Source of the DNA: Arenicella xantha
GTDB taxonomy: Bacteria > Pseudomonadota > Gammaproteobacteria > Arenicellales > Arenicellaceae
Assembly: GCF_003315245.1 (NCBI RefSeq)
Contig: NZ_QNRT01000004.1
Coordinates: 62,001 to 126,000 of the forward strand
Direction: 5' to 3'
Length of the DNA stretch: 64,000 nt
How positions within the stretch are numbered: position 1 is the first letter of the stretch; every line of letters starts with the position of its first letter. The notes under the pieces are model-generated. The model saw only the letters and a program-made list of their open reading frames with translations, was not told the DNA's origin and ran no database searches. A program made the translations under genes and the position numbers. Of this stretch, positions 1,780 through 14,932 are shown piece after piece.

Positions 1780-3528
1780 CTAACTGGATGGTTTTAATCT
1801 GAGAGCGTCGTGTATTACCGCGAGCAATTGTTCAGGGCTCACTGGCTTGTGTAAGAGTTGAAAGCCGCTGTTCACAACTTGCTGCAGTCGTTCTGGGGAG
1901 GTGTCTCCAGTAACAATGATTGATGGAATTTCTTGGTTAAATTCTTCTTGTATTCGTTGGCAGGCATCAGTGCCAACTTTGTCGTTACGTAACCGATAAT
2001 CGGCGATCGTGACGTCTGGTGGTCGGTTTAGTCCGCTCATTAACGCAACCGCCTGGTCCTCTGATTCGGCGCAGAAGACTTGGCATCCCCAAGAAGTTAA
2101 AAGTTTATCCATGCCGTTTAACACGCTTAGATCGTCGTCGATTACTAAGATTGATTTATCCAGCAGGTCTCCAATATTGGCGCTTGTTTCGACCGGCTTT
2201 TGTGAGGCTGTCTCGGTACCGGGTCTTACCTCTAATTTAAACGTAGTCCCATGGCCAACAGCCGTGTCAAACGTTAATGGTAGGTCAAGTAAATCGCATA
2301 GACGTTTGACGATTGCTAGACCCAAGCCAAAGCCCTGATTTCGGTCGCGTTCAGGGTTATGCAGCTGGTAATATTCGGAAAATATATTGTCAGCCTCTTC
2401 GGCCGGAATGCCTGGGCCAGAATCAGATATGCTAATGCACAGATTCCCGTTACGCTTGGAGTTTGCGACGATGGAAATCGTACCGTTTTCGGTATATTTG
2501 ACGGCGTTCGACAGTAGGTTTCGTAATATTCGCATTAAGAGTACTGGGTCCGTATATACGAAATGCTTAGTGTGATCAATCTCGAACTTGATGCCTTTGC
2601 CTTCTGCTTGTGACGAAAACTCTTCGCTAATTTCTTGGAAAAGATCGTGCAATGGTATGTTTTTCTGACTAACTTCTACCACGCCTGCATCCAATTTTGA
2701 CACGTCCAGCAAACTATTAAACGAGTTATTGAGAGCGTTCATTGAGTTGGAAACGCCTTCCAGTAATTGTTGTCCCGTTTCAGTTTTAACATGCTCATGC
2801 AGAGCCGATAGTAGGAGCCCAGTAGTGTGCAATGGTTGTCTTAAGTCATGACTGGCCGCTGCAAGAAATCGATTTTTATCGTCCACGGCTTTTTCGGCCA
2901 CAACTCTTTTTTCTTCGAGGCTTTCGGCTAGATTTTGCTTCTCGAGTTGAACTCTGATTAAGTCCACTACTTCTGTATTTGTTACATTGTAGAGGTAAAG
3001 GATGAAGATATTAAAGAATATCGTCCCGACGCCAAACGATGCATATTGGCCATTGTCGTAAATGAAAAATAGCAGGGGTAAGGAAATGGAGAAGGGTAGC
3101 CAGTACACAAAATACGAAGGGCGGTGCGCCGCTAGGGCGACAGTTCCGGAAACGATTAGAATGAAGTAGACGAAAGAAAACACTAGTAGCAGTAGAGTGT
3201 TTGCTGGAGTGAAAAACATCGGTAGAGCAATGCTCCAAGTTATGCCAGTTAAGGCAACATTGGCCGCGTATAATTTTAGTAATCGGTCAATGTTGTACGA
3301 TGTTACTTCGGCCCGATCAAACATTGGATAGAGCCAAAACCCTCTAAGTGTAACAATCAATAAATTAGGGATCAGGCAAAATATGACTACCGCAGTGGGG
3401 TCATGGCGCCAATAAAAAAACGAAAACGTGAGCACAAGAGTAAGTAGCGCCCAGTTTGGCGTACGACGATTCAGCAAAACCTCAAGGGTTTGTTTTTTGA
3501 CATGAAAATCGATTGGCTTCATCGGCAT
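1780..3528 (-). CDS. Membrane hybrid sensor histidine kinase / response regulator
   Basis: 582 residues. About six hydrophobic membrane segments fill residues 26-180, with no recognisable periplasmic sensor domain. A short coiled linker leads to HisKA with the phospho-acceptor His227 in SHDLRQPLH. The HATPase domain has its N-box around 339-343 (NAVKY), G1 DSGPGIP at 369-375 and G2 GFGLGLAIV at 399-407. The receiver domain (458-575) has acidic residues DDD 464-466, phospho-acceptor Asp510 in IADYRL and Lys561. The SHDLRQPLH plus ADYRL signature is shared by the ErcS-prime type of hybrid kinase. It probably signals through a separate output regulator, since no DNA-binding domain is fused. A hairpin overlaps its stop codon at 1760-1781 but has no T tract. 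Confidence 0.93.
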   Translation of the reverse strand: MPMKPIDFHVKKQTLEVLLNRRTPNWALLTLVLTFSFFYWRHDPTAVVIFCLIPNLLIVTLRGFWLYPMFDRAEVTSYNIDRLLKLYAANVALTGITWSIALPMFFTPANTLLLLVFSFVYFILIVSGTVALAAHRPSYFVYWLPFSISLPLLFFIYDNGQYASFGVGTIFFNIFILYLYNVTNTEVVDLIRVQLEKQNLAESLEEKRVVAEKAVDDKNRFLAAASHDLRQPLHTTGLLLSALHEHVKTETGQQLLEGVSNSMNALNNSFNSLLDVSKLDAGVVEVSQKNIPLHDLFQEISEEFSSQAEGKGIKFEIDHTKHFVYTDPVLLMRILRNLLSNAVKYTENGTISIVANSKRNGNLCISISDSGPGIPAEEADNIFSEYYQLHNPERDRNQGFGLGLAIVKRLCDLLDLPLTFDTAVGHGTTFKLEVRPGTETASQKPVETSANIGDLLDKSILVIDDDLSVLNGMDKLLTSWGCQVFCAESEDQAVALMSGLNRPPDVTIADYRLRNDKVGTDACQRIQEEFNQEIPSIIVTGDTSPERLQQVVNSGFQLLHKPVSPEQLLAVIHDALRLKPSS

Positions 3529-3951: not shown

Positions 3952-5292
3952 CTATCTTGGCTGTAATGTAGCGGTGATTCGATTGTTTGCCGCCGCAACT
4001 GCGTTCCATTCAGTTGAGCTGGTGGTTCGGTCTAGCTGCGGGTATTGATATGACGGTGCTGATACGCCGAGCGCGATAAGGTCTAACCGAAGGTCGCCAC
4101 GTTCAATAATGTCCGCGGAGTCAATCATATTGGCAAATTGAACTGAGGTATCTGTTGAGCTGGTGTAGGTGCGCGATGTATCGCTAATTAACTGGCATTG
4201 GGTCACTGGTAGTGGCTCGCTTGGTAAAATTAGTGAGCCACTAGCATCTGCTTCAGTGCAAAAATTACCATGGTGCAGCTCCAACGATAAGGTTCCTTTA
4301 AAATTAGTTTGATCGAGTGAATCGAGCAGGTCGCTGACGAGTCTGATGCGGTCTCCCGATAGCGCTTGTTCGGCAAAGCCAAACTGTGACTGAAGGTTGA
4401 GGTTGTTCAGTTGAACCTCGAAGTCTGAACTGGAGCTGCTCCCTTCTGGTCTTGCGCTAGTGTCATCTATCGGAGCGTGTATTGATTCTATTTCAGCGGC
4501 TTGATTTGATGCTGATGCGGCGCGTAACTGACTCACTTCTTGGCGAAGTTTTATCATTTCAATCAGGCTAAATAGCGCTAATGCTGTAAGAATTCCGATG
4601 CCGATATACATCCAGTTTGGCTGTTTTGAGCGTGGCTTAGATCGTAGTTCACTTAGGAGTTTGGTGTTTGCTGTTTGTTGCTGCTTTTGGTGGCGAGCGA
4701 CATCATCTCGTACCACGCGAAATTCTCGCATGAACCGATTAATTAGCACGCGAGTATTATCTTGAATTTCGCGTCTAACACGACGTTGTTGAATATCCAT
4801 CGAACTTGCTACTTGATCTCTGATCGCCGCAAGATCGGGCGTTAGCTCAGTGTGATGGAGGGGCTCGATTGTCGCCCCTTGCCCGTCATGTTCGATCGGC
4901 GGAATATCGCCGAGCAGTGTTCCAACATTGACATGCTTCACGACCCTGTCCACATCTAAGTCGGTCATTATGTCTTTGGAAAGCACGTCAATAGCGCCAG
5001 CGGCACGTGCCTGACGAACGTATTCGTCGCCAGATTCGGCGGTGTACATCGATATCGGGATGTTACTAGTGGCGGGGTTTGATTTGATTATCTTGATCGC
5101 TTCTAAGCCGTTCATGCCGCGCATCGAGTGATCCATGAAAATTACGTCTGGAATGCGATACGATAGATAGCTCAAGGCATCCTCAGCCGAGAATGCTAGA
5201 TCAATACTCAGGTCGTAACGTTGAAGTATTCGCTTCAACTTAAAGTGAGCAGTTTTAGAGTCATCAACGATGAGTGCGGTTTTAGTGGGCAT
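3952..5292 (-). CDS. Membrane-anchored response regulator with periplasmic C-terminal domain
   Basis: 446 residues with an unusual layout. Residues 5-120 are a CheY-like receiver with the acidic pair Asp10/Asp11 in LIVDDS, phospho-acceptor Asp54 in FMDHSM, Thr84 and Lys106. Residues 150-215 are polar and helical. One strong membrane span follows at about 227-247 (YIGIGILTALALFSLIEM). A Ser-rich linker (285-290) leads to a 150-residue C-terminal domain with two cysteines (345, 366) that could form a disulfide. No DNA-binding or enzymatic output domain is visible. If the receiver is cytoplasmic, the C-terminal part is periplasmic, so phosphorylation might be read across the membrane. The C-terminal domain is not recognised; a loose OmpA/MotB-like resemblance in the FAEQALSG region is weak. 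The start codon has only a weak ribosome site. Confidence 0.85.
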   Translation of the reverse strand: MPTKTALIVDDSKTAHFKLKRILQRYDLSIDLAFSAEDALSYLSYRIPDVIFMDHSMRGMNGLEAIKIIKSNPATSNIPISMYTAESGDEYVRQARAAGAIDVLSKDIMTDLDVDRVVKHVNVGTLLGDIPPIEHDGQGATIEPLHHTELTPDLAAIRDQVASSMDIQQRRVRREIQDNTRVLINRFMREFRVVRDDVARHQKQQQTANTKLLSELRSKPRSKQPNWMYIGIGILTALALFSLIEMIKLRQEVSQLRAASASNQAAEIESIHAPIDDTSARPEGSSSSSDFEVQLNNLNLQSQFGFAEQALSGDRIRLVSDLLDSLDQTNFKGTLSLELHHGNFCTEADASGSLILPSEPLPVTQCQLISDTSRTYTSSTDTSVQFANMIDSADIIERGDLRLDLIALGVSAPSYQYPQLDRTTSSTEWNAVAAANNRITATLQPR

Positions 5293-8702: not shown

Positions 8703-11471
8703 TTAACCTGTGTTGCGCAAACCTGTGGCGATGCCATTGATACTATCGAGTACCGGTTTCAGCCAAGGTGAGGCCATGCGATCCGGTTCATTGGCTAAGC
8801 GTCTTAATAACATCACTTGTATATAATTTAATGGGTCTAAATAAGCATTACGCCAGCGCACTGATTGACCAATTTGCGGAAAATCGCCCATCATGTCATC
8901 GATGCCGGTGATCGTACGAATGGTGTCAATGGCCACTTGATACTCGCCTTGCATTTGCTCGAAGGTGCGCTTAGCAATAGCTTGATCTGAACACAGCGTT
9001 GAATATTCATGTGCGACCTCTTGATCTGTTTTCAAGATCACCATTTGCGAATTACTCAATAAATTTTGAAAATAGCGCCAGTTGTTTTGCATGTCCTGTA
9101 ACGTGCTTAGTCCGCCTTCTTCAATGGCCTGACTCAGAGCGCTACCTAAGCCGTACCAACCAGGAATATTCTGGCGTGATTGAGACCAGCCAAAAACCCA
9201 TCCGATAGCTCGAATAGATTTTTTTGAGTAGTCCGCGGTTTTACGGTGCGAGGGTCGAGAGCCGATATTAAGTAGCCCGATTTCTGCCGACGGAGTGGTT
9301 TCGTAAAAGTATTGCATGGTGGCCACATTGTCATCGGTCAGGTCGCGAAATGCCTGCTCACCAATGGTCACCAATTTGTCCATCATGGCGATGTGTTCGG
9401 CTTGGTCATCATGCGTTACGCCCGGCAAACTGGCTTTCATTAGGCCGGTAATGCCAACTGTCAACTCGTAGCGAGCTGTTTCTTTAAAATTGTATTTGAA
9501 TGACAGCACTTCGCCTTGTTCAGTGAACTTAATACCGCCTTTAACCGTGCCTTTAGGCTGACTTAAAATTGACTCGTGAGTTGGGCCGCCGCCGCGACCA
9601 ATAGTGCCGCCGCGACCGTGGAATAAGAGGCAGCGAATGCCGTGCTTATCGGTTAAGCTGACAATGTTCTTCTGAGCTTTATATAAGTTCCAGCTAGATG
9701 CCAATATACCGCCGTCCTTACAAGAGTCGGAGTATCCCAACATGACCTCTTGAGTCTGGTCGGAGTAGCTTAGTAATTGTCGATAGACTTTATTGTTAAA
9801 CAAACTCTCTAAGGTTGGTTCCGCATGCTCGAGATCCACCACGGTCTCAAATAATGGGGCAATGTGAATTTGACATTGCACGTTACCGGCGGCGTCGGTC
9901 TCAATTAACCCAGACAGCTTGGCCAGCAGCGCTACCTCTAAGAGGTGGCTGGCTTCATGTGTCATCGAGATGATGTAGCTACCGAAACAATTTTCAGAAA
10001 CTTCGGCACGCATCTCGCTCATTAACTCAAACACGCTAATAATATCGGCGCTCTGAATGGTGATCTGACGTCGGTCGTAGCTGAATGGTTGTGTGCTTAG
10101 CAGTTGCTCGGTCAACCATGCTTGGCGCTGTGCTTCGTCCATTGCGTAGTAGTCGATTGGGTCGGCTAGGGTTGAAGCGATTTCATGAATGGCCTGCGTA
10201 TGGAGCGTCGACTCCTGGCGGATATCCATCTTAGATAAATAGAACCCGCAGCTGTCTAATAAACGCATTAGGTCGCGTAGGCTGCCGCGCGTGAGGTTTG
10301 CTTCATTGTGATGAACCAGTGAGTCACGCACCAAGGCCAGCTCGTCGGCGAACTCCTTCTCGGAGCGAAAGGCTAATGGATCAAAAAAAGCTTTACCGTC
10401 ACCGAGTCGGGCTTGGACTTGATCGATGGTTTTTTCGAGACGCAACTTAACCAAGCTTAGTTTTCGACGATACGGCTCTTTGATATGTTTCTCACCAAAA
10501 TATTTGGCTAACCGAATTTGGTCGCGTTCCATTGATTTAACAAACGCTGGCGATAACTCAATTTGATCGGCGCTATGAGTGAAGACCGTGCTTAATTCAT
10601 CAACTCGCCGAGCGTATTCCGTGAGTACCTCAACTTGCTGCATACGCAGCGCGTTACGAGTAATTTCTGGCGTAACAAATGGATTGCCATCGCGGTCACC
10701 GCCGACCCATGTGCCAAAGCGAACGATATTCGGGATTTCTAATGATTGACCGCGTGCTTCTGGGTAAACCGCCTTTATTGCGTCTTCAAGGTCGCGGTAG
10801 ATTTGTGGTAAACAAGCAAAAATACTCTCGCGAAAATAGTAAAGTGAGTTTTCGATCTCATCATAGACTGTTGGCTTGGTCGGCCTTACCGCTTCAGTTT
10901 TCCAAAAGATCTGAATCATCGCCTTTAAGCGATGTTTAAATCCTGACAAATCTGATTCAGATAGATCGTCGCGGGTTAAGCCTTGGTATTGCGCATGGAT
11001 TCGTTGCAATGCTTCGAGCACAATGGGGCGCTTGGCTTCAGTTGGATGAGCGGTAAAGGTTGGGTAGTAGTTCAAATCACTAATCAACGTCATTACCTGA
11101 TCAAGGCTCATGCCGTCGGAGTTGAATTTCTTAATTGTGTCAGCGAACGAGTTTTTCCATGTTTCGCCGTTCTCTTCTTGGTCATCACGCGCTTGTTGAT
11201 TAGCGTGCTCTTCGGTGATATTCGCAAGATGGAAAAATGTACTGAACGCATGAATGACACGATCTAGGGACTCGGCATCCATTGCTTCAATGGCTTCTAA
11301 AAGTTCGGCCTTCTGATTGGCATCGGGTTGTAAACGTTGGCCGATAAAGCCTTGCCTTAATAACTCAACGGCGTTGAATATGGCTGAGCCTTCTTGCTCG
11401 TTAATTACTTCGCCCAATAAGTCGGGCAATATTTTTGCGTTGTCACTGAGCGCGTTAATAGGGGGATTCAC
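8703..11471 (-). CDS. ppc: Phosphoenolpyruvate carboxylase
   Basis: 922 residues, slightly longer than the 883-residue E. coli enzyme. It carboxylates PEP to oxaloacetate to refill the TCA cycle. The catalytic His142 is in FTAHPTEAKR, the glycine-rich GGDRDGNPF follows in the middle third, the FHGRGGTIGRGGGPTHES loop is in the last third, and the chain ends in the canonical RNTG. The EAKR continuation after TAHPT differs from the EITR of the E. coli-like enzymes and suggests a separate Ppc clade. The gene is divergent from the CHAT operon with a 161-base shared promoter region. Confidence 0.97.
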   Translation of the reverse strand: MNPPINALSDNAKILPDLLGEVINEQEGSAIFNAVELLRQGFIGQRLQPDANQKAELLEAIEAMDAESLDRVIHAFSTFFHLANITEEHANQQARDDQEENGETWKNSFADTIKKFNSDGMSLDQVMTLISDLNYYPTFTAHPTEAKRPIVLEALQRIHAQYQGLTRDDLSESDLSGFKHRLKAMIQIFWKTEAVRPTKPTVYDEIENSLYYFRESIFACLPQIYRDLEDAIKAVYPEARGQSLEIPNIVRFGTWVGGDRDGNPFVTPEITRNALRMQQVEVLTEYARRVDELSTVFTHSADQIELSPAFVKSMERDQIRLAKYFGEKHIKEPYRRKLSLVKLRLEKTIDQVQARLGDGKAFFDPLAFRSEKEFADELALVRDSLVHHNEANLTRGSLRDLMRLLDSCGFYLSKMDIRQESTLHTQAIHEIASTLADPIDYYAMDEAQRQAWLTEQLLSTQPFSYDRRQITIQSADIISVFELMSEMRAEVSENCFGSYIISMTHEASHLLEVALLAKLSGLIETDAAGNVQCQIHIAPLFETVVDLEHAEPTLESLFNNKVYRQLLSYSDQTQEVMLGYSDSCKDGGILASSWNLYKAQKNIVSLTDKHGIRCLLFHGRGGTIGRGGGPTHESILSQPKGTVKGGIKFTEQGEVLSFKYNFKETARYELTVGITGLMKASLPGVTHDDQAEHIAMMDKLVTIGEQAFRDLTDDNVATMQYFYETTPSAEIGLLNIGSRPSHRKTADYSKKSIRAIGWVFGWSQSRQNIPGWYGLGSALSQAIEEGGLSTLQDMQNNWRYFQNLLSNSQMVILKTDQEVAHEYSTLCSDQAIAKRTFEQMQGEYQVAIDTIRTITGIDDMMGDFPQIGQSVRWRNAYLDPLNYIQVMLLRRLANEPDRMASPWLKPVLDSINGIATGLRNTG

Positions 11472-11632: not shown

Positions 11633-14600
11633 ATGGGTACCCCGACTCACCAGTTGAATAATGTGCTGATGTTTAATCTTGCTGTGCGAACTGCTCGGCT
11701 TAGTGGAATAGTTCTGATTGTAAGCCTAATTTTCGGCCGAGCGGTGCTGGCAGATGATTCAGCGCGGCGGCTTGTAACCGGTGCTGATCTAAGTCAACCA
11801 CGGAGCATCGAGATTGCTCTCAACCCGAATTCGTATGTGGTAATTAGGGTTGCGCAACGCACCGCGGATTATCAACTGGCTTTGTATCGTTCCAGTGACG
11901 CCACGCTAATTAGACAGGTGAATTTGTCGGCGCACAAAGCGGTTGATGAACTAATGTTGGTGGAGGCTTCAGACTGTCGTCAATGTCGGGTCGAACTGAT
12001 GGCCGACAGTCTCATTGACCAGCGCGGTACGTACCAAATGACTGTCGAAACAGTTGCGGTTACCCCATCGTCAATGTCGACAAACTCACGCGCCGAGCTG
12101 GAAACTCTTCGTGCTATTTCGCAAGTGGGAGAGCTCAACCATAAGCTCTATCAAGCGCAGGATGATGATACCAATTATTTAGCATTGGCCTCTCAGTTGC
12201 TTGAGTCAAGTTTGACTATGACTCCGCAGAATGCCCATACATTGCAGGCTACCTTTTTGGCGTTGCAAGTGGCTGGTATGCAGCGTCAAACAGAAGTCGT
12301 TACCGAGCTGGCACAACAGATTGCGGCAACCGCGGATCAAAGAATAAGTCTATATAGTATCCAGGCGGTCTATGAACTTGCACGGCAAGCTGACAATATA
12401 GCGAATAAGCATGCGTTGTTTCGGCGCGGCATGGCCGATGCAATTACTGTTTCTGAGCCGTTACTGTATGCCAAGGGGGCTAATTATTTGGCAATTAGCT
12501 TAACCCGCGAAGGTCGTTTTGAAGATTCGATAACGTTATTTAAGGATGTTTACGAGATCTACTCGCGAGAACAGCATTTGGCCGCGTTGATGTTCGCACT
12601 GCATAACCTAAGTTGGGCAAGTCAGCGGTCCGGCGATTTGCCCAAGGCTATTTCGTATGCGGCACAGCAGAAAATGGTGGCTGAAGAGAATCAAGCGCAG
12701 TCTAGCGTAATTTGGTCGCTTTACAATATGGCGATCGCCTACGGTGAGTTAGGCGACCACTTCGAGGCTGATCAATTTTTAGACCAAGCGTTAGAGCGCT
12801 ACTCGGTGTTGCCTGAGTCAGAGCAGCGTGACAATGACGGAATTTACGGGGCTATTTTAGAGGAGCGTGCCGAGAGCTTATTACGCCTAGGCGATGTAGC
12901 GTCAGCGCGAGATCTGGCAATACTGATTAAGGCGCACTATGAACAGGGTAATTTTCAACGCAATCTAGCGCATTTTGGCATGCTGGAAGGTAAGATCGCG
13001 ATCGCCGCCGAGCGTTTTGATGATGCCCGCGATGTGCTCACTGAAACACTGGAGTATTACCAGAAGACCGAAGAAGGTCGCAGTGCCGGTTTAGCGCATT
13101 TTCGCTTAGCCGAGTTAGAACTTACCCAGGGCAATTTGATTCTAGGATCGACGCATAATGCCGCTGCCCTCAAGAAGCTGTCTGGTACCGAGGACTATTT
13201 CTCTCTGGCTAAGGCATTTAGCCAAGCCGTTGAGGTGCTGAATGTGCTTGGAGCGCATACCGACGCCGCAGCGTTGGCCGCGCAAGTTACTAACTTTATT
13301 GGCACTCATGGGCGAGAGGATGTTGAAGCTGAATTTGCTTATCGGCGCGCTAAAGTCGCGCAGCAATTAAAGCAAACCGATGCGGCGCTGCTGTGGTTGA
13401 ACGAGGCTAAGCGATTGCTTGAAGAGAAGTTGCCCAAGGTTAAGCGGCGTGACTTAAGGCAGCAGTATTTAGCCTTGCAGAAGTCGTTGTTTGAACTAAA
13501 TATTGGACTGCTGGTAGATCAGGGCCAAACCGAGAAAGCCTTGCAGGTAGTCGAATCGTTTAAGGCGAGAACCTTGAAGGAAACGATCAACCAAGTTCGA
13601 AACACGCAGGCTTTGCCAAGTGCTTTACAGCAAACGCGTCGACTTTTGCATCAACAGATACTGCAGAGTGCAACGACTTGGTATAGCGACCCGAGTCGCC
13701 GAGAAGTGTCACTATTAGCCAATACTAGAGTATTGAGTACTGAACTGGAGAAGGTAGAACTTGATATTGCGGCGCTGCAAGGCAAAGTCCAACCTAATAG
13801 TCCAGACGACTCTCTGCCAGCCATTCCGCAACTCAACAACCCAAGTGAGTTGATGGCGTTTTATTTTATTGGTCAGCAGCGTAGTTGGATGTGGCTGCTC
13901 GAGTCGACAGGAATAAGTGTGTTTGAGTTGCCTGCTGCCAACGAGCTGTTACCTTTAGTGCATAGCCTAAAACAACAGGTCTCGCTGCATCCGCGCCATA
14001 GAACGGCTGGCAATGCGTATCAACAGAGGCAAGACTTGCTAAGTTTGGGAGAGCTCTTGCTTGGGCCGATTGCTAAACAGGTCGATTTTTCGAAGATCAG
14101 CAATCTAACTATTATTCCAGATGGGCCGTTGCATGGATTAACGTTTGCACCACTGCAATTGGCTAATTTGGATGGTCCTTTGTTGGCGCACACGGCAATT
14201 TCTTATGCTCCGTCATATCAGGCTTTAGTGGCGCTCGAACAGCGTGCTGAACGTAACAATTCACTAGCCTCAGCGATGAATGTGTTGGTCGTTGCTGACC
14301 CTATTGATTTAACCCTCGAAAAGTCACCATTCGAGCGCTTGCCGGCAACGGTGTATGAAGCGCAACAAATTAGATCAATTTTAGGTGATCGAGTGCAGGT
14401 GTTGATGGGCGAGGGCGCGACTAAAAAAAACTTACTCAAAGCGCTGTCGCATCGATATTCCATTTTGCATTTTGCTACGCACGGTCTATTGAATAATCAG
14501 ACGCCGGCACTGTCTGGTTTAGTATTTTCACGTAACTCGACGGACGCACATTTTTGGTTGACACCGGAGATCAGCAGCACAGATTTGCAAGCCAATTTGG

Positions 14601-14932
14601 TTGTGTTGAGTGCTTGCGAAAGTTCGATTGGTAGAGAGGTGGCAGGCGAAGGCTTGCTGAGTTTGAGTCGTGCATTTATCGAGGCTGGGGCGAGCCACGT
14701 TATTGGAACTTTGTGGAAAGTACAAGACACCGCTACGGCGCAACTGACGAGTCGATTTTATTCTAAGCTGTTAGATGATAGTCTAGCTGTCTCGGTTGCG
14801 CTGCAAATGGCGCAACTTGAGGTTTATAACGATCAACAAAACGATTGGCGTGACCCTTATTACTGGGCCGGATTTCAACTTCAAGGTGGTTGGCAAACAT
14901 TAACCTATGGTAGCGATAAAAGCACCGAGTGA
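11633..14932 (+). CDS. Exported TPR-CHAT caspase-like protease protein
   Basis: 1099 residues. An N-terminal hydrophobic segment (about 23-40, GIVLIVSLIFGRAVLA) followed by Asp-Asp looks like a signal peptide or anchor. A beta-rich region (45-145) with a CRQC pair precedes a long helical TPR array from about 150 to 680. The CHAT domain fills about 770-1090, with the caspase-like dyad His950 in HFATHG and Cys995 in LSACES, and the conserved GTLWKV block. CHAT is a clan CD peptidase fold that includes separase-like and Craspase proteases. Its gene overlaps the ECF sigma gene by 26 bases, so the two are translationally coupled. The substrate is unknown; the membrane anti-sigma-like protein and the Cys-rich protein of the same operon are candidates by context. 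Start choice (11633 or ATG at 11669) is unsupported by a good ribosome site. Confidence 0.88.
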   Translation: MGTPTHQLNNVLMFNLAVRTARLSGIVLIVSLIFGRAVLADDSARRLVTGADLSQPRSIEIALNPNSYVVIRVAQRTADYQLALYRSSDATLIRQVNLSAHKAVDELMLVEASDCRQCRVELMADSLIDQRGTYQMTVETVAVTPSSMSTNSRAELETLRAISQVGELNHKLYQAQDDDTNYLALASQLLESSLTMTPQNAHTLQATFLALQVAGMQRQTEVVTELAQQIAATADQRISLYSIQAVYELARQADNIANKHALFRRGMADAITVSEPLLYAKGANYLAISLTREGRFEDSITLFKDVYEIYSREQHLAALMFALHNLSWASQRSGDLPKAISYAAQQKMVAEENQAQSSVIWSLYNMAIAYGELGDHFEADQFLDQALERYSVLPESEQRDNDGIYGAILEERAESLLRLGDVASARDLAILIKAHYEQGNFQRNLAHFGMLEGKIAIAAERFDDARDVLTETLEYYQKTEEGRSAGLAHFRLAELELTQGNLILGSTHNAAALKKLSGTEDYFSLAKAFSQAVEVLNVLGAHTDAAALAAQVTNFIGTHGREDVEAEFAYRRAKVAQQLKQTDAALLWLNEAKRLLEEKLPKVKRRDLRQQYLALQKSLFELNIGLLVDQGQTEKALQVVESFKARTLKETINQVRNTQALPSALQQTRRLLHQQILQSATTWYSDPSRREVSLLANTRVLSTELEKVELDIAALQGKVQPNSPDDSLPAIPQLNNPSELMAFYFIGQQRSWMWLLESTGISVFELPAANELLPLVHSLKQQVSLHPRHRTAGNAYQQRQDLLSLGELLLGPIAKQVDFSKISNLTIIPDGPLHGLTFAPLQLANLDGPLLAHTAISYAPSYQALVALEQRAERNNSLASAMNVLVVADPIDLTLEKSPFERLPATVYEAQQIRSILGDRVQVLMGEGATKKNLLKALSHRYSILHFATHGLLNNQTPALSGLVFSRNSTDAHFWLTPEISSTDLQANLVVLSACESSIGREVAGEGLLSLSRAFIEAGASHVIGTLWKVQDTATAQLTSRFYSKLLDDSLAVSVALQMAQLEVYNDQQNDWRDPYYWAGFQLQGGWQTLTYGSDKSTE

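Follow-up and report, generated by a model that had tools for sequence, protein, structure and literature searches.

In the 64,000-nucleotide stretch of Arenicella xantha DNA analysed here (contig NZ_QNRT01000004.1, positions 62,001 to 126,000; hereafter the window), one gene joins a response-regulator receiver to a membrane span and to a domain beyond it. Response regulators are known for their cytoplasmic outputs. The gene lies on the minus strand, and a UPF0014 gene on the same strand ends about 125 bases upstream of it. Its parts, in window coordinates, are these:

3952..5292, minus strand: whole gene, receiver, stalk, span and exterior domain (ORF call, 446 aa)
4963..5274, minus strand: receiver domain, residues 7-110 (Pfam PF00072, E 1.5e-20)
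5131-5133, minus strand: phospho-acceptor D54 (codon within the receiver domain)
4645..4839, minus strand: predicted helical stalk, residues 152-216 (AlphaFold2 full-length model, low to moderate confidence)
4552..4608, minus strand: single membrane span, residues 229-247 (Kyte-Doolittle 2.05; within model helix 227-271)
3955..4425, minus strand: C-terminal domain, predicted exterior, residues 290-446 (AlphaFold2 pLDDT 78.9; OmpA/Pal/MotB-like alpha/beta fold)
4258..4260, minus strand: Cys345, first of the invariant pair (kept in 31/31 sequences)
4195..4197, minus strand: Cys366, second of the invariant pair (kept in 31/31 sequences)

That receiver, span and exterior domain are really combined in the window protein is close to certain. 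The receiver matches Pfam Response_reg at residues 7-110 with 73.8 bits, against a cut-off of 30.2, and has D10, D11, D54, T84 and K106, all of them invariant in the 28 aligned receivers (28/28). By fold and catalytic residues it is a complete response-regulator receiver, and phosphorylation is predicted; the Pfam E value of 1.5e-20 and the conserved catalytic residues bear out the receiver with Asp54 that a preliminary description of this DNA had claimed. A Pfam scan of the protein found no cytoplasmic output domain, a membrane span following instead, and no HAMP or other juxtamembrane relay module. A classical response regulator has a cytoplasmic output or is a lone soluble receiver, and the window protein is neither. 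From the full-length AlphaFold2 model (pLDDT 63.6, pTM 0.32) we took the helix limits only. The stalk helix covers residues 152-216, with a block pLDDT of about 53-79, and at modest confidence a second helix, 227-271, encloses the span, after which the C-terminal domain follows.

The highest 19-residue Kyte-Doolittle mean in the protein, 2.05, falls at residues 229-247, a stretch of sufficient length to cross the membrane, and a span at the equivalent position (mean of at least 1.61) was found in 29 of the 30 family members long enough to judge. The remaining one, L018, has a hydrophobic mean of just 0.97, with no clear span and a shorter ORF at that place; this member (L018:1480-2805) keeps the exterior domain and its cysteines. 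In a tally made by hand of 29 sequences, 21 had more Lys and Arg on the N-terminal than on the C-terminal flank of their span, 3 were tied and 5 had fewer. The conserved span, the cysteine pair confined to its C-terminal side and the mostly higher Lys and Arg content on its N-terminal side fit a cytoplasmic receiver with the C-terminal domain beyond the membrane. The single span claimed earlier is shared by nearly all family members, and the exterior position of the C-terminal domain stands as a predicted topology that rests on the conserved span, cysteine and charge patterns.

The exterior domain is 157 aa long (290-446) and contains the only cysteines of the window protein, at 345 and 366. 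This pair was kept after the span in 31/31 sequences, with a spacing of 21 (22 in L013), and W429 and N430 were likewise conserved in 31/31, while cysteines before the span were sporadic. The set of 31 takes in the window protein, L009-L013 and L018 beside the profile matches described below, and the alignment retains near-copies (e.g., L033/L034, L035/L039, L047/L050). C345 and C366 probably form a disulfide; what had been suggested as a possible bond becomes a likely one, as both cysteines are kept throughout.

An AlphaFold2 prediction of the exterior domain from six sequences gave a best model with a pLDDT of 78.9 and a pTM of 0.74, the other four models lying at 44-68. When this model was searched with Foldseek, the best E value was 0.04 and the first 22 rows were, by their titles, all of the OmpA/Pal/MotB/YfiB/ZorB kind. 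VIA-align, which re-examines the list that Foldseek had produced, gave a best row with Z 6.0 and an rmsd of 4.2 over 111 aligned residues, and the 50 rows among the matches listed were likewise, judged by title, of the OmpA kind. The titles from both programs named Pal, YfiB, MotB, PomB, OmpA, OprF, TagL, ZorB, PorE and SiiA. Helices and strands follow one another in the model much as they do in OmpA-like domains, and at these modest scores the exterior domain looks similar to the OmpA/Pal/MotB fold. Sequence searches gave no such match: the PDB returned nothing for the exterior domain at E values up to 10, Pfam returned no family beyond one chance match and no OmpA match for six members at E values up to 10, and among the NCBIfam matches listed there were only receiver families, none for the exterior domain. 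Of the structure prediction and homolog search of residues 290-446 that the preliminary description had proposed, the former has thus yielded an OmpA-like fold with modest scores and the latter no Pfam, NCBIfam or PDB sequence family.

Homology to OmpA was also approached by profile comparison, which we do not count as evidence, as the score was no better than that of column shuffles. Compared by hhalign with 33 OmpA domains from relatives (uncurated rows, cut mechanically by coordinates), the whole domain aligned collinearly with a score of 15.0, which is not significant, since the best of 200 column shuffles reached 23.2, at least 8 of the 200 reached 16.3, and their median was 11.2. The wall-binding site of the OmpA family includes the Asp of a GHTD motif and an Arg. 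In the same non-significant register, G342 and Q382 are set at these places, and the exterior-domain alignment has no conserved Asp matching the site. Because the sequence comparison does not confirm the relationship and the wall-binding Asp is absent, we speak of an OmpA-like fold and not of the OmpA family. The OmpA/Pal/MotB domains (PF00691) remain the best structural neighbours, with a similar predicted alpha/beta order, but the exterior domain differs from them in having no Pfam match, no GHTD-type conserved Asp and an extra two-cysteine stretch, and in being fused behind a receiver and a span.

A profile search with the exterior domain gave 25 matches in 24 of the 369 sampled genomes of the class. 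Of these 25 ORFs, 24 also showed the receiver, although L030 showed just part of it, and in L031 none was seen because the contig ends; wherever the N-terminus was visible, the exterior domain was fused to the same receiver and span. It is kept across 16 genome families, and its carriers include an Arenicella MAG, Thioalkalivibrio sp. XN8 and Gammaproteobacteria MAGs. Presence within the genus is patchy (3/18 genomes: G000, G001 and G007) in an order-level search that matched 13 of 109 genomes at E <= 1e-12, several of these matches being other receivers, and in a phylum-wide sample of 398 genomes matches were found in G000 and G180 only. Judged by these matches, the window protein is a member of a conserved family whose architecture is kept as a unit.

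A search with the receiver alone showed what lies around this family. Beyond the exterior-domain proteins, the next ORFs were mostly 220-450 aa long, and we took as relatives without the exterior domain 24 of the 25 rows down to E 2.1e-31, leaving out G170:C81 (160 aa), together with L021-L024. A C-terminal span, with 0-27 residues beyond it, was present in 27 of these 28 (L140 has no span at all), whereas among 208 ORFs of 250-460 aa from the neighbourhood loci, none of them a receiver, a lone C-terminal span occurred in 2. Because of this difference, we count the receiver among the tail-anchored response regulators, a group marked by long helical stalks. With 199 residues following its span, the window protein is not itself tail-anchored in the sense of a span at the extreme C-terminus. 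The tail-anchored receivers (L141-L163, L021-L024) have long Ala/Glu-rich stalks, with internal repeats in some (L144, L145). Adjoining one tail-anchored regulator is an ORF, L171:10624-11328, that by eye resembles a MotB/OmpA-like membrane protein.

In a tree of 67 receivers, every exterior-domain row fell into one clade (99/97) with the tail-anchored rows nearest to it, and the rows with another exterior domain formed one clade (91/87) inside it. The tree is built on few columns, with many forks open and a midpoint root for drawing only; it leaves out L030, L031, L034, L039, L050 and L052, it contains one PilH sequence twice, as O_L002 and O_L004, because two loci overlap, and T_L140 is labelled a tail anchor though it is without a span. 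L014, L015 (Pleionea) and L139 have a different two-cysteine domain after the span, making up the C-terminal 200 residues with the cysteines about 45 apart; a Pfam scan of this replacement domain in L014 and L015 found nothing convincing. L017, from the genus of the window's organism and 54% identical, keeps the receiver and span and has lost the exterior domain, and it groups with the window protein in the tree. The exterior domain was probably added once within the tail-anchored group, and on a plain reading of these sequences its history would comprise one gain, one exchange and at least one loss.

The preliminary description had named the adjacent hybrid kinase (1780-3528) as a possible partner. 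It is the next gene downstream on the same strand, about 424 bases from the regulator, and a search of the intervening bases gave no terminator-like site on the minus strand, all of which would suit a dedicated pair. We consider such a pair very unlikely and have rejected this kinase as the partner, on the absence of linkage elsewhere and on its NahK/ErcS-like identity. This kinase lay beside the regulator in 0 of 33 other loci compared, the same genus included (several of these loci are short contigs or cover one place more than once). In NCBIfam the window kinase comes closest to NahK/ErcS (337.6 bits, below the cut-off of 400), and the gene next to it encodes an ExaC aldehyde dehydrogenase (922.5, above 900). 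Four other kinases of its kind are present in the same genome at E <= 1e-60. Its 53% orthologue in G011 lies with a second NahK-type hybrid kinase and, by eye, a divergent NarL/LuxR-type regulator (L194:6690-10916), and the membrane regulator was not found in that genome, which is 87% complete. Nor did the other loci show any conserved neighbour gene or operon around the regulator. The PEP carboxylase gene ppc (window 8703-11471) is close to the regulator, either adjoining it or a few genes away, in L053, L055 and L074; this proximity, as in the window, is a relic of gene order. At 11633-14932, the window also encodes a 1099-aa protein with repeats and, by eye, a CHAT-like C-terminus, and a 51% relative of it occupies the corresponding position by ppc in L074.

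The receiver itself may point to the chemosensory system of type IV pili. PilG and PilH are the nearest kind of receiver, PilH being the best other match in the window's own genome (37%), where the ChpA receiver is also among the nearest; in the tree, PilH stands on the same side as the anchored receivers, with forks mostly open. In this genome PilG and PilH have 129 and 122 aa and no span, unlike the window protein. A ChpA-type query (the CheA-type core) matched 184 of the 369 class genomes, including 22 of the 24 with the exterior domain and 20 of the 21 with tail-anchored regulators. For the anchored genomes together, this makes 42/45 versus 142/324 of the rest (p 3.9e-11), a co-occurrence that is partly phylogenetic; by genome family it is 16/16 (p ~2e-5, with an approximate family total). 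The three anchored genomes without a match (G300, G315, G446) each have a same-genus genome with one (G164, G192, G351), and the count was left uncorrected. Flagellar FliG, the control, accompanies the regulators less closely: on a smaller sample it gave 15/21 versus 147/291 (p 0.05), with a second control value of p 0.025, and FliG is absent from the window's genome. Some general association with motile, free-living species thus persists. Gene context was checked in the window's genome, where an intact pilG-pilH-pilI-pilJ-chpA-chpC cluster lies on contig C1 (L193), its genes named from ORF order and look and ChpA also by a CheA-type family match; the regulator is on contig C4, outside this cluster. 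We infer that ChpA is most likely the kinase of the anchored receiver, whose closest kin are PilH and other anchored receivers.

From these observations we tentatively favour, at somewhat less than even chances, a membrane-tethered receiver of the Pil-Chp type that is fixed to the envelope by its exterior domain; its partner and mechanism are inferred. Inside the cell, the cytoplasmic receiver would be phosphorylated, and the likeliest kinase is ChpA, the chemotaxis-type kinase that belongs to type IV pili; the span would hold the receiver at the membrane. In the periplasm, the OmpA-like domain with its probable disulfide would anchor the regulator to an envelope structure, such as the pilus machine or the cell wall. 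Once phosphorylated, the receiver would then act at a fixed site, and the protein would be a third kind of regulator, bound to the envelope, next to the soluble PilG and PilH. We rank tethering first because the group manages without the exterior domain, and the tail-anchored relatives together with the natural domain loss in L017 suggest that the core job is to hold the receiver at the membrane. A signal passing outward, which we regard as possible though rather doubtful, is ranked second because the exterior domain is strongly kept once gained. Phosphorylation would then alter the dimerisation or twist of stalk and span and switch the exterior domain between a wall- or partner-bound and a free state. 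The conservation of the exterior domain in 16 genome families, its Cys, W and N being invariant, and the long helices that flank the span on both sides in the model, would agree with this, and LapD is a single protein that relays a signal from within the cell to an output domain in the periplasm (PMC3032553). Against it stand the 27 of 28 receiver relatives that are anchored with no exterior domain, the loss in the near relative L017, the substitution of another domain in L014, L015 and L139, and the lack of a HAMP-type relay module in the Pfam scan.

Ranked third, and unlikely in our view, is a sensor-receiver without a kinase of its own, in which the exterior domain would read the wall, the redox state or a periplasmic partner and tune how the receiver accepts or holds phosphate. 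Two different-looking types of two-cysteine exterior domain on one receiver clade would fit exchangeable sensors, but the exterior domain matched no known sensor family and we know of no established class of receivers with an external sensor. The patchy presence in 3 of 18 genus genomes and the incomplete L018 and L017 could also indicate a degenerate or mis-assembled fusion without function, which is scarcely credible given that catalytic residues, span and cysteines are conserved over 16 genome families.

Two known systems resemble parts of the tethered regulator. LapD-type receptors likewise combine an internal signal domain, a membrane passage and a periplasmic domain, and an outward direction is possible; in LapD the signal is c-di-GMP, relayed by HAMP with flanking transmembrane helices (PMC3032553), whereas the window protein uses one span and a phospho-receiver. 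Polar hubs of the FimV type would be alike in role, as membrane proteins that connect a Pil-Chp component in the cytoplasm with the envelope. FimV has LysM and TPR-type parts and no receiver. A Pil-Chp review gives it a role in PilG localisation and names two regulators, PilG and PilH (PMC12632253). Among the papers listed by searches of the open-licence PMC literature, no title or abstract opening describes a membrane-anchored or membrane-spanning response regulator, and the membrane-anchored regulators are apparently a conserved group that has so far gone undescribed. A bolder claim, which we think improbable, is that they form an undescribed class in Gammaproteobacteria that gives the chemosensory system of type IV pili a third output arm. 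In one branch of this class, phosphorylation of the receiver would be transmitted through the inner membrane, and an OmpA-like domain stabilised by a disulfide would take hold of, or let go of, the cell wall or the pilus secretin complex. A membrane-locked group with a branch reaching through would represent another use of the receiver, in which it acts at a particular site of the envelope. Should ChpA be the kinase, a membrane-bound actor would join the two soluble regulators with which this system has been described, and the cell envelope would be tied to pilus chemotaxis in a concrete and testable way.
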